Shown here: positions 38,240 through 47,240 of the stretch, in pieces
Position numbering within the stretch: position 1 is the stretch's first letter
Layout of the letters: every line of letters begins with the position of its first letter
Assembly: GCF_018408705.1 (NCBI RefSeq)
Contig: NZ_AP023420.1
Location: 2,827,575 to 2,891,574 of the forward strand
Length of the DNA: 64,000 bases
Source of the DNA: Pusillibacter faecalis
GTDB taxonomy: Bacteria > Bacillota > Clostridia > Oscillospirales > Oscillospiraceae
Reading direction: 5' to 3'
Translations under genes and position numbers: made by a program
The notes under the pieces: generated by a model
Databases searched by the model: none
What the model was told of the DNA's origin: nothing
What the model saw: the letters and a program-made list of their open reading frames with translations, nothing else

Positions 38240-39184
38240 ATGGCACAACACGCAATTTTGCGGTTTGAGAAGCACAAGGGCAACCCGGCAAGGCCGCTGG
38301 AAGCCCATCACGAAAGACAGAAAGAACAATACGCCAGCAACCCCGACATTGACACAAGCCGGAGTAAATACAACTTCCATATCGTCAAGCCGGAGGGACG
38401 CTATTACCACTTCATTCAGAGCCGTATCGAGCAGGCTGGATGCCGGACGAGGAAAGACAGCACACGGTTTGTCGATACGCTGATAACCGCCAGCCCGGAG
38501 TTCTTCAAGGGGAAATCCCCAAAAGAGATACAGGCGTTCTTCCAAAGGGCGGCAGATTTCCTCATTGGCCGGGTAGGACGGGAAAATATCGTGTCGGCGG
38601 TGGTACACATGGACGAGAAAACGCCCCACCTGCATTTGACCTTTGTTCCGCTGACAAAGGACAACCGCCTGTGCGCTAAGGAGATTATCGGCAACCGGGC
38701 AAACCTGACGAAGTGGCAGGACGATTTTCACGCCTATATGGTGGAGAAATATCCCGACTTGGAGCGTGGGGAAAGTGCCAGCAAGACAGGCCGGAAGCAT
38801 ATCCCCACCCGGATTTTCAAACAGGCGGTTTCCCTCTCCCGGCAGGCAAGAGCCATTGAAGCCGCCCTTGACGGCATTAACCCGCTGAACGCCGGAAAGA
38901 AAAAAGAGGAAGCCCTCTCCATGCTGAAAAAGTGGTTCCCGCAGATGGAGAACTTCTCCGGGCAACTGAAAAAGTACAAGGTCACAATCAATGACCTGTT
39001 GGCGGAGAATGAGAAGCTGGAAGCAAGGGCAAAGGCCAGCGAAAAAGGAAAGATGAAAGATACGATGGAACGGGCAAAGCTGAAAAGCGAACTGGACAAT
39101 TTACAGCGGCTGGTTGACCGTATCCCGCCGGATATACTGGCGGAACTGAAACGTCAGCAGCGGCACACGGTAAAGGAAAGGTGA
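38240..39184 (+). CDS. MobV family relaxase
   Basis: A 314-residue Pre/Mob-type relaxase that nicks oriT to start mobilization. Motif I MAQHAILRFEKHKG is at the start, the asparagine-containing KYNFHIVKPEG near residue 48, and motif III AVVHMDEKTPHLHLTFVPL near residue 125 with the metal histidines HxDExxPHxH. The C-terminal third is a coiled coil (LLAENEKLEARAKASEKG). The reading frame is intact, unlike the neighbouring repA. Confidence 0.92.
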   Translation: MAQHAILRFEKHKGNPARPLEAHHERQKEQYASNPDIDTSRSKYNFHIVKPEGRYYHFIQSRIEQAGCRTRKDSTRFVDTLITASPEFFKGKSPKEIQAFFQRAADFLIGRVGRENIVSAVVHMDEKTPHLHLTFVPLTKDNRLCAKEIIGNRANLTKWQDDFHAYMVEKYPDLERGESASKTGRKHIPTRIFKQAVSLSRQARAIEAALDGINPLNAGKKKEEALSMLKKWFPQMENFSGQLKKYKVTINDLLAENEKLEARAKASEKGKMKDTMERAKLKSELDNLQRLVDRIPPDILAELKRQQRHTVKER

Positions 39185-39803: not shown

Positions 39804-41525
<1,722 letters not shown>

Positions 41526-41748: not shown

Positions 41749-42222
41749 AGAAAATCCCCCTTTCTTTCGCAAACATATAATACAGTCTATGAATAGCAGC
41801 AAGTCCACTATTCAAGAAAACAAAGGCTTTAATCGGACGGTTATTAGCATAACCTCATGGGAATTTCACCCCGGCATGGTTCTCATGCAGCCCTACCCAT
41901 TGCCTGCGACGCTCTTAACGCTCGGACTGTGGCTGTAAGGAAGTATCATTGTATATTTTGCGTGTCGTCGCCCGCAAGCCGCTACACTTGCTTTCCGGCG
42001 CGGTGTTGGTCGCTCGGCTGTCCGGGCGGGGATAACCTCACCCGGATAGCGTCATGGCGCACCCACCGTATGGCTCGGCGCAAAAGGAACGTATCCGATT
42101 TGCCCTATGCTGCGCCGCCGTTATCTTGCGCCGCTTTCTTTGTCAAGGTTCAGAATGGCTTTGCTGCCGCGTCAGCAGCGGAACGGAAAAGGGGGAGAGA
42201 GAAAGCGTCCCGCCGCTGCGGT
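41749..42222. other. Intergenic region without a recognisable gene
   Basis: This stretch of about 470 bases is GC-rich and has open frames on several strands, but none has a good start or a known family. I see no clear promoter or hairpin. Confidence 0.5.
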
Positions 42223-42489
42223 TTATTCCTCTGCCTTAAAGGTGAGGACAGCCATCATCAGTTTTGCTTGCAGCCGTTCCCGAATGTCGTGGTCTACGCC
42301 AAAATAGACGTTCCCGCGCTCGTCGTACAGCTTCCGCATGGAGAGGCGGGCTATGTAGCCGCTGAAATGCTGCAAGACAATCTTCATAGCGTCCGGGTCG
42401 CCCTTTGTCGCTGCCAAAATGACAGGATAGGGAACAAGGGCTTTTTCCGGGTAGCCGGGTTCGTTACCATTCGTCCCATTCATCAGCAT
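42223..42489 (-). CDS. Conjugative-transposon helix-turn-helix protein (HTH_16 type)
   Basis: An 88-residue protein with PVILAATKGDPDAMKIVLQHF and IARLSMRKLYDERGNVYFGVD, then RLQAKLMMAVLTFK. This matches the small helix-turn-helix protein of Tn916-like elements (Orf8 type). It overlaps the 3' end of the sigma factor gene by 26 bases, so the two are translationally coupled. GGAGGAAA precedes the ATG. The pair probably controls excision or transfer. Confidence 0.8.
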   Translation of the reverse strand: MLMNGTNGNEPGYPEKALVPYPVILAATKGDPDAMKIVLQHFSGYIARLSMRKLYDERGNVYFGVDHDIRERLQAKLMMAVLTFKAEE

Positions 42490-42895
42490 TTTCCTCCAGA
42501 TATTTTTTTAGCAGCTCAAAAGAGCTTGTCCGCCTGTACTGTATCGTGCTTCTCGACGTATCGAACAGCTCCGCAATCTCGGTGTCGTTCATTCCCTCGA
42601 AATAGTACAGGAGTACGGCTTTGCGCTTTTCTTCCGGCAAAGTACGGATTGCTTCAAGAAGCAGCTTCGGCGTGATTTTCTTCCCGGCTCTTTCAAAGGC
42701 GATTTCCCCTTTGAAATATTCATCAAAGGTATGAAGCTGCCGCGCTTCTTCTAAGGTCAAGTCGGAAAAGGTAATCTCCCTTGCCTTATGCCTGTGCAGC
42801 TCTTTGTGAGCGTCACACGCTTCATTGTGCAGTACCGTATTACAAAACTTCTGGAAAGCGCACTGTTTTATAAACTCCCTGCGATTAGGTTCCAC
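42464..42895 (-). CDS. Sigma-70-like factor of conjugative elements
   Basis: A 143-residue protein similar to Tn916 Orf7. Residues about 85-140 form the region 4 helix-turn-helix (LPEEKRKAVLLYYFEGMNDTEIAELFDTS, then IQYRRTSSFELLKKYL). A GTG start at 42895 with AAAGGGGGTGAG upstream is chosen; the longer frame starts with unrelated low-complexity sequence. In Tn916 this gene helps turn on excision genes. Confidence 0.85.
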   Translation of the reverse strand: MEPNRREFIKQCAFQKFCNTVLHNEACDAHKELHRHKAREITFSDLTLEEARQLHTFDEYFKGEIAFERAGKKITPKLLLEAIRTLPEEKRKAVLLYYFEGMNDTEIAELFDTSRSTIQYRRTSSFELLKKYLEENADEWDEW

Positions 42896-43070
42896 ATTCT
42901 CACCCCCTTTCTCGTTGGAAAGTTGGTGGTGCTTCCCCCTTTTCGCGGGGCAATACTGCCTTTTGAAAAAAACGCCGAAGATTTTCGGATTTTTTTCAAA
43001 AAATTTTTTGAGCAGCAAAATACGCCTGTCCGAAAAGCCCGGACAGACGTATAGGTATTGTAAGCGGTAT

Positions 43071-43358: not shown

Positions 43359-43401
43359 GAGCCGATAACAGCAGTATTTCAAACTGCATATTATCGGCTC
43401 T
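43359..43401 (-). terminator. Terminator of the rRNA methyltransferase operon
   Basis: GAGCCGATAA pairs with TTATCGGCTC across an inner loop, just beyond the methyltransferase stop codon. Confidence 0.6.
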
Positions 43402-43431
43402 GCGTCTGTGCGTCTGGCTCTTTTAATTAAA

Positions 43432-44421
43432 TTATTTTTGTTGTTTTTTGGCTTTATTATATGTATTAGCTAACTGTCCACAAGCTGCTTTAATCTCTCT
43501 ACCATGAGAAACTCTCATGGTAACTTCAAGTCCTGTTTGCTCTAATTGATGTTTGAACGCAACCATTTCTTGTTTTTGTGGTGCTCTAATTTTTGAATTA
43601 CTCGTCGGGTTGTATTGCAGCACGTTAATCATAACATTTTTGCCCTTAAACCATTTTGCAAGTTGCCTTATATCTGAGGAACGGTCATTTATACCTGGTA
43701 AAAGCAAATACGCAAATACCACTTTTCGATTATGCCTTTGTGAATAGGACAATGCTTGCTTAACAACATCTTCAATAGCGTACATGTGCATATGAGGAAT
43801 GATGCAGTTTCTCGCAGCCTGTGTTGCTGCATGTAAAGATATTGTCAACTGAATTTTTAGATGTTCTTCGCGCAATTTTTTTAATTGATTAACTGGACCA
43901 ACTGTTGATACGGTAATGCCGTCGGTTGGAAAGTTAAGTCCATTTCTATCTCGAAGAATATGGATTGCTGCAATCAAGTTGTCGTAATTGAATAAAGGTT
44001 CTCCCATTCCCATAAAAACGATACGATTTACTTTTTGACGTATCAATATGACCTGTTGCACAATTTCAGATGGTGTTAGATTACGAACGAAACCATTGCG
44101 TCCGGACTCACAAAAAATACAGCCAACAGAACAACCAACTTGCGTACTTACGCAAACAGTCCCACCATCTCGCCGTTTAATAAAAACCGTTTCGATATAC
44201 CTGTTGTCTTTCAATTCATAAACATACTTTTCAGTATCGCTACTTTTATAGACTTTTTTTGTTGATATTGATAGATTTTTTTTGTGAAATGGCTGTTTAT
44301 ACAATTCCGCATATAAGGCTCTTGCTTTATCCTCTCCAATTACTTCCGACATTTCTTTGTAAGTAAATCCGTATGGGTCATTCAATATTTCCGTAAGTGT
44401 ACTTTTAGGTAAGTGTTTCAT
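43432..44421 (-). CDS. RlmN/Cfr-like radical SAM 23S rRNA methyltransferase
   Basis: A 329-residue enzyme of the family that methylates A2503 of 23S rRNA; Cfr members give resistance to phenicols, lincosamides, oxazolidinones, pleuromutilins and streptogramin A. The cluster motif is CSVGCIFC (about residue 98), followed by ESG rather than the usual ATG/AST. MGMGEPLFNYDN and the C-terminal cysteine in KAACGQL (methyl carrier) are present. The N-terminus (MKHLPKSTLTEIL) is not that of canonical Cfr, so C2 versus C8 specificity is open. It starts directly after the KTR gene stop and is AT-rich, behind an attenuator. Confidence 0.88.
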   Translation of the reverse strand: MKHLPKSTLTEILNDPYGFTYKEMSEVIGEDKARALYAELYKQPFHKKNLSISTKKVYKSSDTEKYVYELKDNRYIETVFIKRRDGGTVCVSTQVGCSVGCIFCESGRNGFVRNLTPSEIVQQVILIRQKVNRIVFMGMGEPLFNYDNLIAAIHILRDRNGLNFPTDGITVSTVGPVNQLKKLREEHLKIQLTISLHAATQAARNCIIPHMHMYAIEDVVKQALSYSQRHNRKVVFAYLLLPGINDRSSDIRQLAKWFKGKNVMINVLQYNPTSNSKIRAPQKQEMVAFKHQLEQTGLEVTMRVSHGREIKAACGQLANTYNKAKKQQK

Positions 44422-44607
44422 TTAATATCCTTCCTTTTGTTTTTCAGAGTTTTTGATTATGATTTCTAATTTTTCAACATCAATGATATGTGTTAATTTA
44501 CATTTAGGGCAGAAAAGAGGAAAATTTCTTAATACCGTATTATAAAATACTTGAACCCTCGTCTTTCCGTTACAAATTGGACATTTTATCCAATATTTTT
44601 CAAGCAT
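44422..44607 (-). CDS. Cysteine-rich KTR domain protein
   Basis: A 61-residue protein, MLEKYWIKCPICNGKTRVQV then FPLFCPKCKLTHIIDVEKLE: two CPxC pairs forming a zinc ribbon around the KTR motif. The family is usually found beside ribosomal-protection tetracycline genes such as tet(M) in conjugative elements. ATG 44607 has AAAAGGAGAAA upstream. Here it precedes an rRNA methyltransferase instead of following a tet gene, and both sit behind the same attenuator. Confidence 0.88.
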   Translation of the reverse strand: MLEKYWIKCPICNGKTRVQVFYNTVLRNFPLFCPKCKLTHIIDVEKLEIIIKNSEKQKEGY

Positions 44608-44625
44608 AATATTTCTCCTTTTGTG

Positions 44626-44894
44626 CAAAAAAATACAGGTCAATTCTCAACATGAGCATTGACCTGCATTTATACATATAACACTACAACAAAATTAAGG
44701 CATAGTTTTTATACTATGTCTATACATCGTTAGTTTTGTTGTATAGCATACGCAAAATAAGCATGACAAAAAAGCCCATATTGAAAATGGGAAAAATCTT
44801 TTTTGATTTCAATGCTTATCGAATACGCATGCTATGTAACATAAACATTTCCCCCTTTTAATAATACTATACAAAAAAAGCGGCTAATTGTCAA
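44626..44894 (-). promoter_or_regulatory. tet(M)-style transcription attenuator with leader peptide
   Basis: Promoter TTGACA (44889-44894), 17 bases, TATAGT (44866-44871). A GGGGGA site then serves the 8-residue leader MLHSMRIR (44842-44816). Next come a CCCAT/ATGGG hairpin with six T (44765-44791), a paired ACAACAAAATTAA/TTAGTTTTGTTGT stem (44686-44698 with 44730-44742), and a strong terminator 44638-44664 with a T-run right before the KTR gene. The leader coding region also partly pairs with downstream sequence near 44745-44765. Ribosome stalling should favour read-through. Confidence 0.7.
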
Positions 44895-44988: not shown

Positions 44989-45342
44989 ATGGCAAAAAGA
45001 CCAGTACCGAAATACGATTTCAAGGCTTTTGGGGCAGCGATAAAGGCGGCGCGGACAGGGCGCAAGGAGAGCCGCAAGAAAGTGAGCGACGAAATGTTTA
45101 TCTCGCCGCGCTACCTTGCGAACATTGAGAACAAGGGGCAGCACCCAAGTTTACAGATTTTCTTTGAGCTTATGCTCCGCTACAATATATCCGTAGACCA
45201 GTTTCTTTTGGAAACGCCGCCAGAGAAGAACACGCAGCGGCGGCAGCTTGACGCGCTTCTTGACGGTATGAGCGATACAGGCATACGGATTGTGAGCGCA
45301 ACGGCAAAGGAGATAGCGGAAGTCGAAACAGAGGGCAGATAA
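44989..45342 (+). CDS. XRE family regulator of Element 2
   Basis: A 117-residue protein with an unusual helix-turn-helix (FGAAIKAARTGRKESRKKVSD, then ISPRYLANIENKGQHPSLQIFFEL) and a tail after VDQFLLETPPEK. This small regulator type is common in Tn1549-like elements upstream of mob genes. The ribosome site (CAGGGTGA) is modest. It probably controls transfer genes; its binding site is unknown. Confidence 0.82.
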   Translation: MAKRPVPKYDFKAFGAAIKAARTGRKESRKKVSDEMFISPRYLANIENKGQHPSLQIFFELMLRYNISVDQFLLETPPEKNTQRRQLDALLDGMSDTGIRIVSATAKEIAEVETEGR

Positions 45343-45603: not shown

Positions 45604-45933
45604 ATGAACGGACGCAAAAGAACGGTGCAAATCAAATTCAGAGTGACGGAAGCGGAACGGGATTTAATACTGGAAAAAATGAAGCTCGTACCCACCCGGA
45701 ACATGGCGGCATATCTGCGGAAGATTGCCATTGACGGGTATATCATTCAGATAGACCATGCCGATATAAAGGCAATGACCGCAGAGATACAGAAAATCGG
45801 TGTCAACGTCAACCAGATAGCACGCCGCGTAAACGCGACGGGGAACGCATACCAAGAGGACATAGAGGAAATAAAGGGGGTGCTTGCGGAGATATGGCGG
45901 TTACAAAGATTAAGCCTATTAAAAGCACTCTAA
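45604..45933 (+). CDS. mobC: Relaxosome accessory protein MobC
   Basis: A 109-residue MobC/NikA-type protein with a ribbon-helix-helix N-terminus (VQIKFRVTEAERDLILEKM) and the MobC core IGVNVNQIARRVNATGNAY. It binds oriT and recruits the relaxase. AAAGGAGCG precedes the ATG. Its 3' end overlaps the relaxase start by 40 bases, indicating coupled translation. Confidence 0.92.
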   Translation: MNGRKRTVQIKFRVTEAERDLILEKMKLVPTRNMAAYLRKIAIDGYIIQIDHADIKAMTAEIQKIGVNVNQIARRVNATGNAYQEDIEEIKGVLAEIWRLQRLSLLKAL

Positions 45934-47240
45934 GCAAAGCCCTTGACTATATCGAAAACCCGGACAAGACGGACGGAAAAATGCTTGTGTCCTCTTTCGG
46001 CTGCTCCTATGAAACGGCAGATATTGAATTTGAATATACCTTGTCCCAAGCACTCCAAAAGGGGAACAATTTAGCCTTTCATCTGATACAGTCCTTTGAG
46101 CCGGGGGAAGTCGATTATCAGAAAGCCCATGAAATCGGAAAGCAGCTTGCCGACGCGGTAACAAAGGGGCAGCATGAATATGTACTCACGACGCACATTG
46201 ACAAAGGACACGTCCACAATCACATTATTTTCTGCGCCGTAAATTTCGTAGACCACCGCAAATATAATTCCAACAAAAGGAGCTATTACGGCATACGGAA
46301 CATGAGCGACAAGCTGTGTCGGGAAAATGGCTTGTCCGTCGTCGTTCCCGGCAAGGGCAGCAAGGGAAAGAGCTATGCGGAGTACCAGGCAGAAAAGACG
46401 GGTACAAGTTGGAAAGGCAAGCTAAAGATTGCCGTTGACGCGCTTATCCCCCAAGTTTCCAGTTTTGAGGAATTGTTGCAGCGGTTACAGGCGGCGGGCT
46501 ATGAGATAAAGCCGGGGAAATATGTGTCATGCCGCGCCCCCGGACAGGAACGCTTCACCCGTCTTAAAACCCTCGGCGCGGATTATACAGAGGAAGCCAT
46601 AAGGGAACGGATAGCGGGCAGACGGGCAAAGGCGGCGAAAGCCCCCAGAGAGCAGCGCGGCGTTTCGCTGCTTATCGACATTGAGAACAGTATCAAGGCG
46701 GCGCAGAGTAAGGGCTATGAACAGTGGGCGAAAATCCACAATCTGAAACAGGCAGCAAAGACCATGAATTTCTTGACGGAACATAAGATTGAACAGTACG
46801 CGGATTTAGTCAGCCGGATTGAAGAAATGGCAGCGGAAAGCGGACAGGCGGCAGACGCATTGAAGGACGCGGAAAAGCGGCTTGCGGACATGGCGGTGCT
46901 TATCAAGAATGTTTCCACCTACCAAAAGACAAAGCCCGTCTATGACGCATACCGCAAGGCAAGGAACAGGGAGAAGTACCGCGCCGGACAGGAACAGGCG
47001 ATTATCCTACATGAAGCCGCCGCAAGGTCGCTGAAAGCGGCGGGCATTGCAAAGCTCCCGAACCTTGCCGCGCTGCAATCGGAATATGAAGCCCTCCAAG
47101 CGCAGAAAGAAGCCCTTTATGCCGACTATGGGAAGCTGAAAAAGAAAGTCCGGGAATACGATATTATCAAGCAGAACATTGACAGCATTTTACAGGCAGA
47201 CAGGCAGCCGGAACGGGAAAAGGGAACAGAGCGCGGATAA
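45894..47240 (+). CDS. MOBP family relaxase
   Basis: A 448-residue relaxase of Tn1549 type that cleaves and covalently binds one strand at oriT. The N-terminus AVTKIKPIKSTLSKALDYI contains the catalytic Tyr about 19 in DYIENPDKT. Motif III is THIDKGHVHNHIIFCAVN near residue 100 with the three-histidine metal site. After residue 250 it becomes helical with repeated coiled-coil segments (RIEEMAAESGQAADALKDAE). The gene is intact and translationally coupled to mobC. Confidence 0.93.
   Translation: MAVTKIKPIKSTLSKALDYIENPDKTDGKMLVSSFGCSYETADIEFEYTLSQALQKGNNLAFHLIQSFEPGEVDYQKAHEIGKQLADAVTKGQHEYVLTTHIDKGHVHNHIIFCAVNFVDHRKYNSNKRSYYGIRNMSDKLCRENGLSVVVPGKGSKGKSYAEYQAEKTGTSWKGKLKIAVDALIPQVSSFEELLQRLQAAGYEIKPGKYVSCRAPGQERFTRLKTLGADYTEEAIRERIAGRRAKAAKAPREQRGVSLLIDIENSIKAAQSKGYEQWAKIHNLKQAAKTMNFLTEHKIEQYADLVSRIEEMAAESGQAADALKDAEKRLADMAVLIKNVSTYQKTKPVYDAYRKARNREKYRAGQEQAIILHEAAARSLKAAGIAKLPNLAALQSEYEALQAQKEALYADYGKLKKKVREYDIIKQNIDSILQADRQPEREKGTERG

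Follow-up and report, generated by a model that had tools for sequence, protein, structure and literature searches.

The locus and its features

The locus described here lies within a 64,000-nucleotide stretch of Pusillibacter faecalis DNA (contig NZ_AP023420.1, positions 2,827,575 to 2,891,574; hereafter the window). On its minus strand, from 44894 down to 43432, a promoter, a short leader open reading frame (ORF), nested hairpins and a strong terminator precede two genes, the first encoding a KTR-domain protein and the second an RlmN/Cfr-like enzyme assigned below to mrmA, all of them where a preliminary description of the sequence had placed them. The features of this operon are as follows.

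44866..44894, minus strand: promoter TTGACA-17-TATAGT, 11 of 12 consensus matches
44816..44842, minus strand: leader ORF MLHSMRIR-stop, the proposed macrolide sensor; ATG at 44842, preceded by GGGGG at 44855-44851
44809..44835, minus strand: 5' arm of the outer stem, within and just past the leader ORF (from the fold; helices 1 and 2, helix 1 with three double-sided pair changes)
44767..44805, minus strand: hairpin 1, terminator-like, with its core at 44791-44775 and six T at 44773-44768 (sequence and fold)
44774..44783, minus strand: CAATATGGGC, 3' half of hairpin 1, one partner of the proposed antiterminator (10 of 10 pairs with the terminator 2 loop)
44743..44766, minus strand: 3' arm of the outer stem (fold and covariation alignment)
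44687..44732, minus strand: middle hairpin (fold; helices 5 and 6, four double-sided pair changes)
44627..44671, minus strand: strong intrinsic terminator 2, seven T at 44633-44627 (-22.5 kcal/mol on a 60-base piece)
44648..44657, minus strand: GCTCATGTTG, loop and 5' arm of terminator 2, second partner of the proposed antiterminator (complementarity counts)
44422..44607, minus strand: KTR-domain gene, cysteine-rich, 61 amino acids, first gene of the operon (PF14205, E 3.6e-21)
43432..44421, minus strand: mrmA, RlmN/Cfr-like radical-SAM methyltransferase, 329 amino acids (PF04055; NCBIfam scores, primers and tree)
43391..43423, minus strand: remnant of a KTR C-terminus (KEPDAQTQSR-stop) directly past mrmA, 43 of 48 bases identical in an alignment with the tail of the KTR gene found behind tet(S)

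The hairpin of terminator 2 spans 44671-44631, immediately ahead of the KTR gene, and comparable promoter hexamers were found by eye in the same position in the five relatives printed. As the tail of a KTR gene recurs just past mrmA, mrmA may have inserted close to where a KTR gene ended. In locus L103 a KTR-tail-like stretch occurs on both sides of mrmA, and in P0008 the KTR and mrmA genes are fused in frame.

Identity of the methyltransferase gene

MrmA is an RlmN-like methyltransferase described from Tn6105, inside Tn6110/Tn7806, of Clostridioides difficile (PMC11983580, 2025). In 11 distinct loci a 984-base ORF begins and ends with exact matches to the two cloning primers published for mrmA; 10 of these loci encode one identical protein, and L098 differs by one change. 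Two additional loci match just one primer each. The window protein is 85.6% identical to this primer-bounded ORF. Since the primers match a cluster about 86% identical to the window protein (hereafter the 86% lineage), the gene is a known one and the window carries another allele of it, so that the preliminary suggestion of an unrecognised resistance gene has been overtaken by the published work (PMC11983580). Like the C. difficile protein, the window enzyme is an RlmN-like radical-SAM protein borne on a mobile element and distinct from both RlmN and Cfr, the two differing as alleles.

Profile scores agree with this placement. The window protein falls below the cut-off of the NCBIfam RlmN model TIGR00048 (270.9 against 290 bits) and far below those of the Cfr models (197.6 against 530 and 191.1 against 550 bits), and no model dedicated to MrmA came up in the NCBIfam search. 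In a tree of 73 rows built by a quick method (49 of the 76 loci L007-L082, the host RlmN, three Cfr and 20 Mrm rows, the last chosen by likeness to the window protein), the Mrm rows form one clade with full support (Shimodaira-Hasegawa-like approximate likelihood ratio test, SH-aLRT, 100), whose stem measures 1.76 changes per column and which lies apart from RlmN. The three Cfr rows lie elsewhere. Cfr, Cfr(B) and Cfr(C) belong to the same RlmN/Cfr superfamily and share the catalytic cysteines, but are 32-35% identical to the window protein. A Cfr-like phenotype was considered for the window gene and dropped on the grounds of the Cfr cut-offs and the separate clade.

Residues C97, C101 and C104 form the CxxxCxxC motif, whilst C90 and C314 align with the cysteines that carry the methyl group in RlmN/Cfr. 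Across 47 aligned rows C90, C97 and C314 are invariant, and C101 and C104 are kept in at least 90%. Position 237, on the other hand, is Glu in 27 of 27 RlmN rows and Ala in 20 of 20 Mrm rows, and the host genome encodes an RlmN of its own elsewhere, which shares 35% identity with the window protein. Judged from its sequence, the window gene is thus an mrmA allele, neither Cfr nor a housekeeping RlmN. In a side observation, mrmA is joined to a kinase-like N-terminus in P0010, a protein seen on 34 contigs.

The published phenotype points to macrolides. In the table of PMC11983580, MrmA expressed in an Escherichia coli delta-tolC strain raises the minimum inhibitory concentration (MIC) of erythromycin from 2 to 512-1024, given as 512-fold, that of pristinamycin IA from 64-128 to 1024 (4-fold according to the text), and that of quinupristin/dalfopristin from 1.5-2 to 6. 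Tylosin, pristinamycin IIA, clindamycin, tiamulin, chloramphenicol and linezolid show no rise there. The published spectrum differs from that of Cfr. Of the five drug classes that the preliminary description put forward for MIC tests, four are the Cfr set. The target adenine is stated by the authors to be unknown (PMC11983580). Additionally, resistance models built in C. difficile for azithromycin and clarithromycin include a rule on a Tn6110 region that lies 136 bp downstream of a gene for a 23S ribosomal RNA (rRNA) methyltransferase (PMC5037627), an independent association that supports the link between mrmA and macrolides. By analogy with this printed, 86%-identical protein, the window allele may be expected to confer the same resistance.

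The leader peptide

A strict pattern search (ribosome site, short ORF, hydrophobic residue, then R or K, any residue, R or K and stop) returned the MLHSMRIR ORF as its sole match in the 64 kb, and 0, 0, 1, 0 and 0 matches in five shuffled windows. An alternative in-frame ATG two codons upstream would give MFMLHSMRIR; a gap of 2-3 bases separates it from the G run, and the 86% lineage lacks it. Macrolide leaders include MTHSMRLR (ErmD), MTASMRLR (MefE) and related peptides (PMC4335068, Table 3), and an Arg-X-Arg arrest motif is described in PMC10314930 and PMC8298421. According to the latter, Arg6 and Arg8 of the ErmD leader (ErmDL) are required for arrest by telithromycin, and Ser4 matters in arrest by erythromycin. 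MLHSMRIR has His3, Ser4, Met5, Arg6 and Arg8 in common with the ErmD peptide.

The attenuators of erm(K)/erm(D) and mef(E)/mef(A) likewise have a short M-R-X-R leader with its own ribosome site, inverted repeats and a terminator before the gene (PMC4335068, PMC10314930, PMC8298421), and the window has both the short ORF with ribosome site, M-R-X-R and Ser4 and the intrinsic terminator between leader and gene. It differs from them in reading MRIR rather than MRLR, in a topology of the tetracycline type, and in controlling a radical-SAM methyltransferase; the comparison covers peptides and layout. The leader of tlrB (RlmAII), MIIQFIRYR, is similarly a macrolide-stalled peptide ending in R-X-R that switches on a 23S rRNA methyltransferase, but that enzyme methylates G748, the system responds to tylosin and the leader is a different one (PMC6851288). 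Closer to it is the leader of an mrmA relative on a Paraclostridium plasmid (L107, 3201-3330), MIINFMRIR, which is followed by a TACCGC...GCGGTA hairpin. This leader is laid out like that of an RlmA gene in L115, and is a second macrolide-type leader kind ahead of an mrmA relative.

A census of 28 loci, which includes copies or re-fetches of one record (L084 and L127 share a record), gave MLHSMRIR in 16 and MLHSIRIRK (L104), MIINFMRIR (L107) and MFSYNYI in one each; as it used the patterns of leaders already seen, new kinds of leader were outside its reach. ORFs with the published mrmA primer ends in other genomes have the MLHSMRIR leader. Between the window and the 86% lineage there are two base differences in the eight leader codons, both synonymous, and between the window and MLHSIRIRK of L104 five changed codons, four of them synonymous. 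Such recurrence and codon conservation set the leader beyond a chance ORF. Taken together, the sequence comparisons suggest that MLHSMRIR is probably a macrolide sensor of the ErmD/ErmK/MefE kind, and that its reading as a tetracycline sensor is probably wrong.

RNA fold and proposed switch

Covariation was assessed on eight aligned leaders (alignment A3), with the window fold as reference for the terminating (OFF) state. In this fold 92.6% of alignment cells pair, and eight pairs have changed on both sides, a number reached by 0 of 500 shuffles, with slid versions giving 0-2. The covariation supports the OFF fold.

The proposed antiterminator pairs CAATATGGGC with GCTCATGTTG, and was counted on hand-anchored strings because MAFFT misplaces hairpin 1 of L103 and L104. 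All 10 pairs are present in the window, L091, L084, L108, L102 and L104, and 9 of 10 in L103, whilst slid partners give 1-6 pairs in the window, L108, L104 and L103. Shuffles matched this complementarity in 7 (window), 4 (L108), 6 (L104) and 23 (L103) of 300 each. The antiterminator probability was then modelled with the leader free or covered, for transcripts cut at the end of the loop and three bases later; the values, free to covered, are given below for the shorter and then the longer cut.

Window: 0.34 to 0.99; 0.99 to 1.00
L084: 0.74 to 0.99; 1.00 to 1.00
L091: 0.00 to 0.99; 0.47 to 1.00
L108 and L102, each: 0.00 to 0.99; 0.00 to 1.00
L103: 0.00 to 0.76; 0.00 to 0.79
L104: 0.88 to 0.90; 0.32 to 0.91
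L100: 0.00 to 0.00; 0.00 to 0.00

Covering the leader thus gives a clear modelled switch in four of the eight leaders, one that depends on the cut in three (window, L084 and L104) and none in L100. In a 35-base occlusion scan of five leaders, covering the leader ORF raises the antiterminator in four, with L104 high regardless; occluding the 3' arm does likewise in the window, L091 and partly L103, as does occluding the middle stretch in the window and L104. Hairpin 1 as the sole attenuator was rejected, as it is modelled to form with or without a stalled ribosome, which makes terminator 2 the likelier decision point. Modelling and conserved pairing are read as support for a kinetic switch, short of proof.

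Of 391 genomes of the class, 7 contain the terminator 2 sequence (one mismatch at most), and each of these is one of the eight that have an mrmA relative (E 1e-100). The possibility that the leader is a free-standing mobile RNA was discarded, the terminator sequence occurring only alongside mrmA in the 391 genomes searched. A supposed leader relative on plasmid LC810154 (44 bases matched) was also set aside, as it precedes an ORF unlike KTR or mrmA, and a 15-base scan of viral contigs (75 stretches) proved too loose and was not used. In L085/L126 an insertion takes the place of the terminator 2 stretch between the leader and the KTR gene.

Comparison with tetracycline resistance leaders

The preliminary description had seen the plan of tetracycline control here, and with regard to RNA topology this is upheld. 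The leaders of tet(S) (L219), of the tet gene in L129 and of the host's own tet ribosomal-protection gene (L228, C1:2577800-2581500) fold, as single sequences, with the OFF topology of the mrmA leader, sharing an outer stem, a six-T hairpin and a strong terminator before the gene. The mrmA leader has the arrangement of a tet attenuator, with pairing between its ORF and a 3' arm that encloses a U-tailed hairpin, and with a terminator after that, and this shared topology is what the earlier reader recognised. The sensor peptide is where the likeness ends, as all three tet leaders read MRQGILK. Matches by blastn between the mrmA leader and those of tet(S) and L129 are of 15 bases or fewer (E 0.14 or worse), and a strict search for a like antiterminator found none in tet(S) and, in L129, matches all inside hairpin 1. 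The observation that the window has no tet gene is correct, the host tet gene lying about 290 kb from mrmA. In two plasmids tet(S) is followed by a KTR gene.

It is possible, though we hold this tentatively, that mobile elements of Firmicutes share one attenuator chassis with swappable sensor peptides (MRQGILK for tet, MLHSMRIR for mrmA), and that mrmA relatives gained macrolide leaders at least twice, as MLHSMRIR in the tet-like chassis and as the TlrB-like MIINFMRIR. As the leader codons are also the 5' arm of the OFF stem, the choice of drug and the RNA fold would be set by the same 24 bases.

Proposed mechanism and alternatives

The reading favoured here, with a probability of roughly 0.8, is that the operon of KTR gene and mrmA, borne on a mobile element, is under a ribosome-mediated transcription attenuator that senses macrolides. 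The analysis demonstrates the identity of the gene, the conservation of the leader, covariation in the OFF fold, conserved complementarity for the antiterminating fold and the mobile setting; ribosome stalling, antitermination and induction are inferred. When the drug is absent, the ribosome would complete MLHSMRIR and depart, the leader ORF would pair with the 3' arm and keep hairpin 1 closed, and terminator 2 would form, halting transcription ahead of the KTR gene. With a macrolide present, the ribosome would stall at M-R-I, its A site occupied by the final Arg codon, and cover the 5' arm; once released, the 3' arm could pair, together with the 3' half of hairpin 1, with the arm and loop of terminator 2, and the polymerase would continue into the KTR gene and mrmA. 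MrmA would methylate 23S rRNA, reducing the binding of 14-membered macrolides and streptogramin B. The preliminary view of an apparent ribosome-mediated transcription attenuator ahead of a ribosome modifier, with a gene of the resistance kind, agrees with this.

Several observations weigh against a macrolide-sensing attenuator. With regard to the peptide, nine of the 28 loci in the census have none of the known leaders (two of these nine have fewer than 350 upstream bases), and L103/L112, at 74% identity, retains the architecture with MFSYNYI, a leader without R-X-R. The RLR motif of ErmDL is described as largely dispensable with erythromycin, where Ser4, its neighbours and context count (PMC8298421), and the RYR of the TlrB leader is reported not to be stalled by erythromycin (PMC6851288), so R-X-R alone cannot settle the drug. 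With regard to the fold, further pair types do not exceed the shuffled level (432 of 500 shuffles reach the observed count), and pair loss in L103 and L104, which is partly misalignment, accounts for most of the variation in helix 2 and the core of hairpin 1. In L100/L118 terminator 2 is inverted in place, so that the hairpin is kept and the antiterminator pairing broken (6 of 10). The free RNA already has a high modelled antiterminator probability in the window and L084 at the longer cut and in L104 at the shorter one, and once the whole terminator is transcribed the model goes back to terminator 2 in six of seven leaders, meaning that the switch would have to be kinetic. Finally, published mrmA expression was driven by an arabinose promoter (PMC11983580).

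The most credible of the other explanations, albeit an improbable one, is that the leader acts through translation attenuation or mRNA stability and not by attenuating transcription, as is partly the case for tlrB, whose leader combines transcription and translation attenuation (PMC6851288); the L107 relative, with its MIINFMRIR leader and hairpin arranged as in the RlmA leader of L115, fits such a device. In the window, however, the structure nearest to the KTR gene is a long, terminator-shaped stem carrying seven T, and the KTR ribosome site lies beyond it, outside the stem. That a tetracycline-stalled leader ribosome turns the operon on is very improbable, despite the OFF topology shared with the three tet leaders, the KTR gene behind tet(S) and the KTR-mrmA pair behind a tet gene in L129, as the mrmA peptide is unlike MRQGILK and the leaders align so poorly; tetracycline is also not among the drugs in the MIC table of PMC11983580. 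Least probable of all is a housekeeping-type RlmN captured by the element, expressed through the terminators and with no resistance role in the host. The score below the RlmN cut-off, the long-stemmed clade, the replacement of RlmN residues such as Glu at position 237 and the host's separate RlmN all speak against this, as does the erythromycin resistance given by the 86%-identical protein (PMC11983580).

Mobile element and neighbouring genes

The operon is surrounded by genes for a relaxase, a MobC-like protein and a serine recombinase. The element genes below were assigned by domain search and from a related annotated plasmid.

45604..47240, plus strand: MobC-like protein and MobA/VirD2-type relaxase
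44989..45342, plus strand: helix-turn-helix regulator
42464..42898, minus strand: sigma-70-like regulator
39804..41507, minus strand: large serine recombinase

The plasmid record NZ_OY725736 is 100% identical over 2.5 kb, and its element carries a relaxase, MobC, a topoisomerase, an ArdA-domain protein and a serine recombinase. With a threshold of E 1e-100, matches to mrmA were recovered from 11 of the 394 genomes searched in the order and from 8 of the 391 in the class, two overlapping sets, and with 1e-120 from 3 of 60 relatives. The occurrence of identical proteins in genomes of several families argues for horizontal transfer. Adjoining the serine recombinase is a match to the pemK RNA (Rfam RF02913, 60.1 bits) at 41855-41952. 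A mobilisation-protein-like ORF at 38240-39184 flanks the element and is also found close to mrmA in L121; mobile elements may be nested around it.

Other resistance genes accompany mrmA in several loci. A Mef-like protein of the major facilitator superfamily (MFS) reaches 542 bits against the MefA model, whose cut-off is 675. In L115 and L128 a blastp relative of this protein is encoded immediately upstream of mrmA, and in L083 one is encoded some 1.9 kb upstream of it. An RlmA-type 23S methyltransferase in L083 scores 177 bits to NF008300 (cut-off 303), with blastp relatives next to mrmA in L115 and at a distance of about 4 kb in L121 and L132; these RlmA-type genes have leaders of their own, MTAHMRLR (L083), MTAYMRLR (L115) and MVTFMRLR (L121). 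The gene order in L107 is a Mef-like MFS gene (350 bits), HflX, the mrmA relative, tetB(P) and tetA(P), and in L129 a tet gene (1284.5 against 1100 bits, NF033148) is followed by the KTR-mrmA pair. These neighbours fit a macrolide resistance gene, but also a general resistance island.

Significance

The words 'leader' and 'attenuat' do not occur in the main text of PMC11983580, and the switch is therefore not described in that main text. What looks new is the mrmA allele together with an attenuator of which no description was found in the open-licence literature, combining a macrolide-like sensor with a tet-like frame. The finding ties a recently described resistance gene, which is still named rlmN in an NCBI record (WP_004607971.1 in NZ_OY725736), to a likely natural inducer. 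Being short and well delimited, the leader also lends itself to the question of how macrolides are selected by MRIR as opposed to MRLR. If the switch works as read, mrmA would be a gene dedicated to macrolide resistance and induced by the drug, one that several bacterial families carry in nearly unchanged form, and its induction could mask resistance until exposure to the drug.
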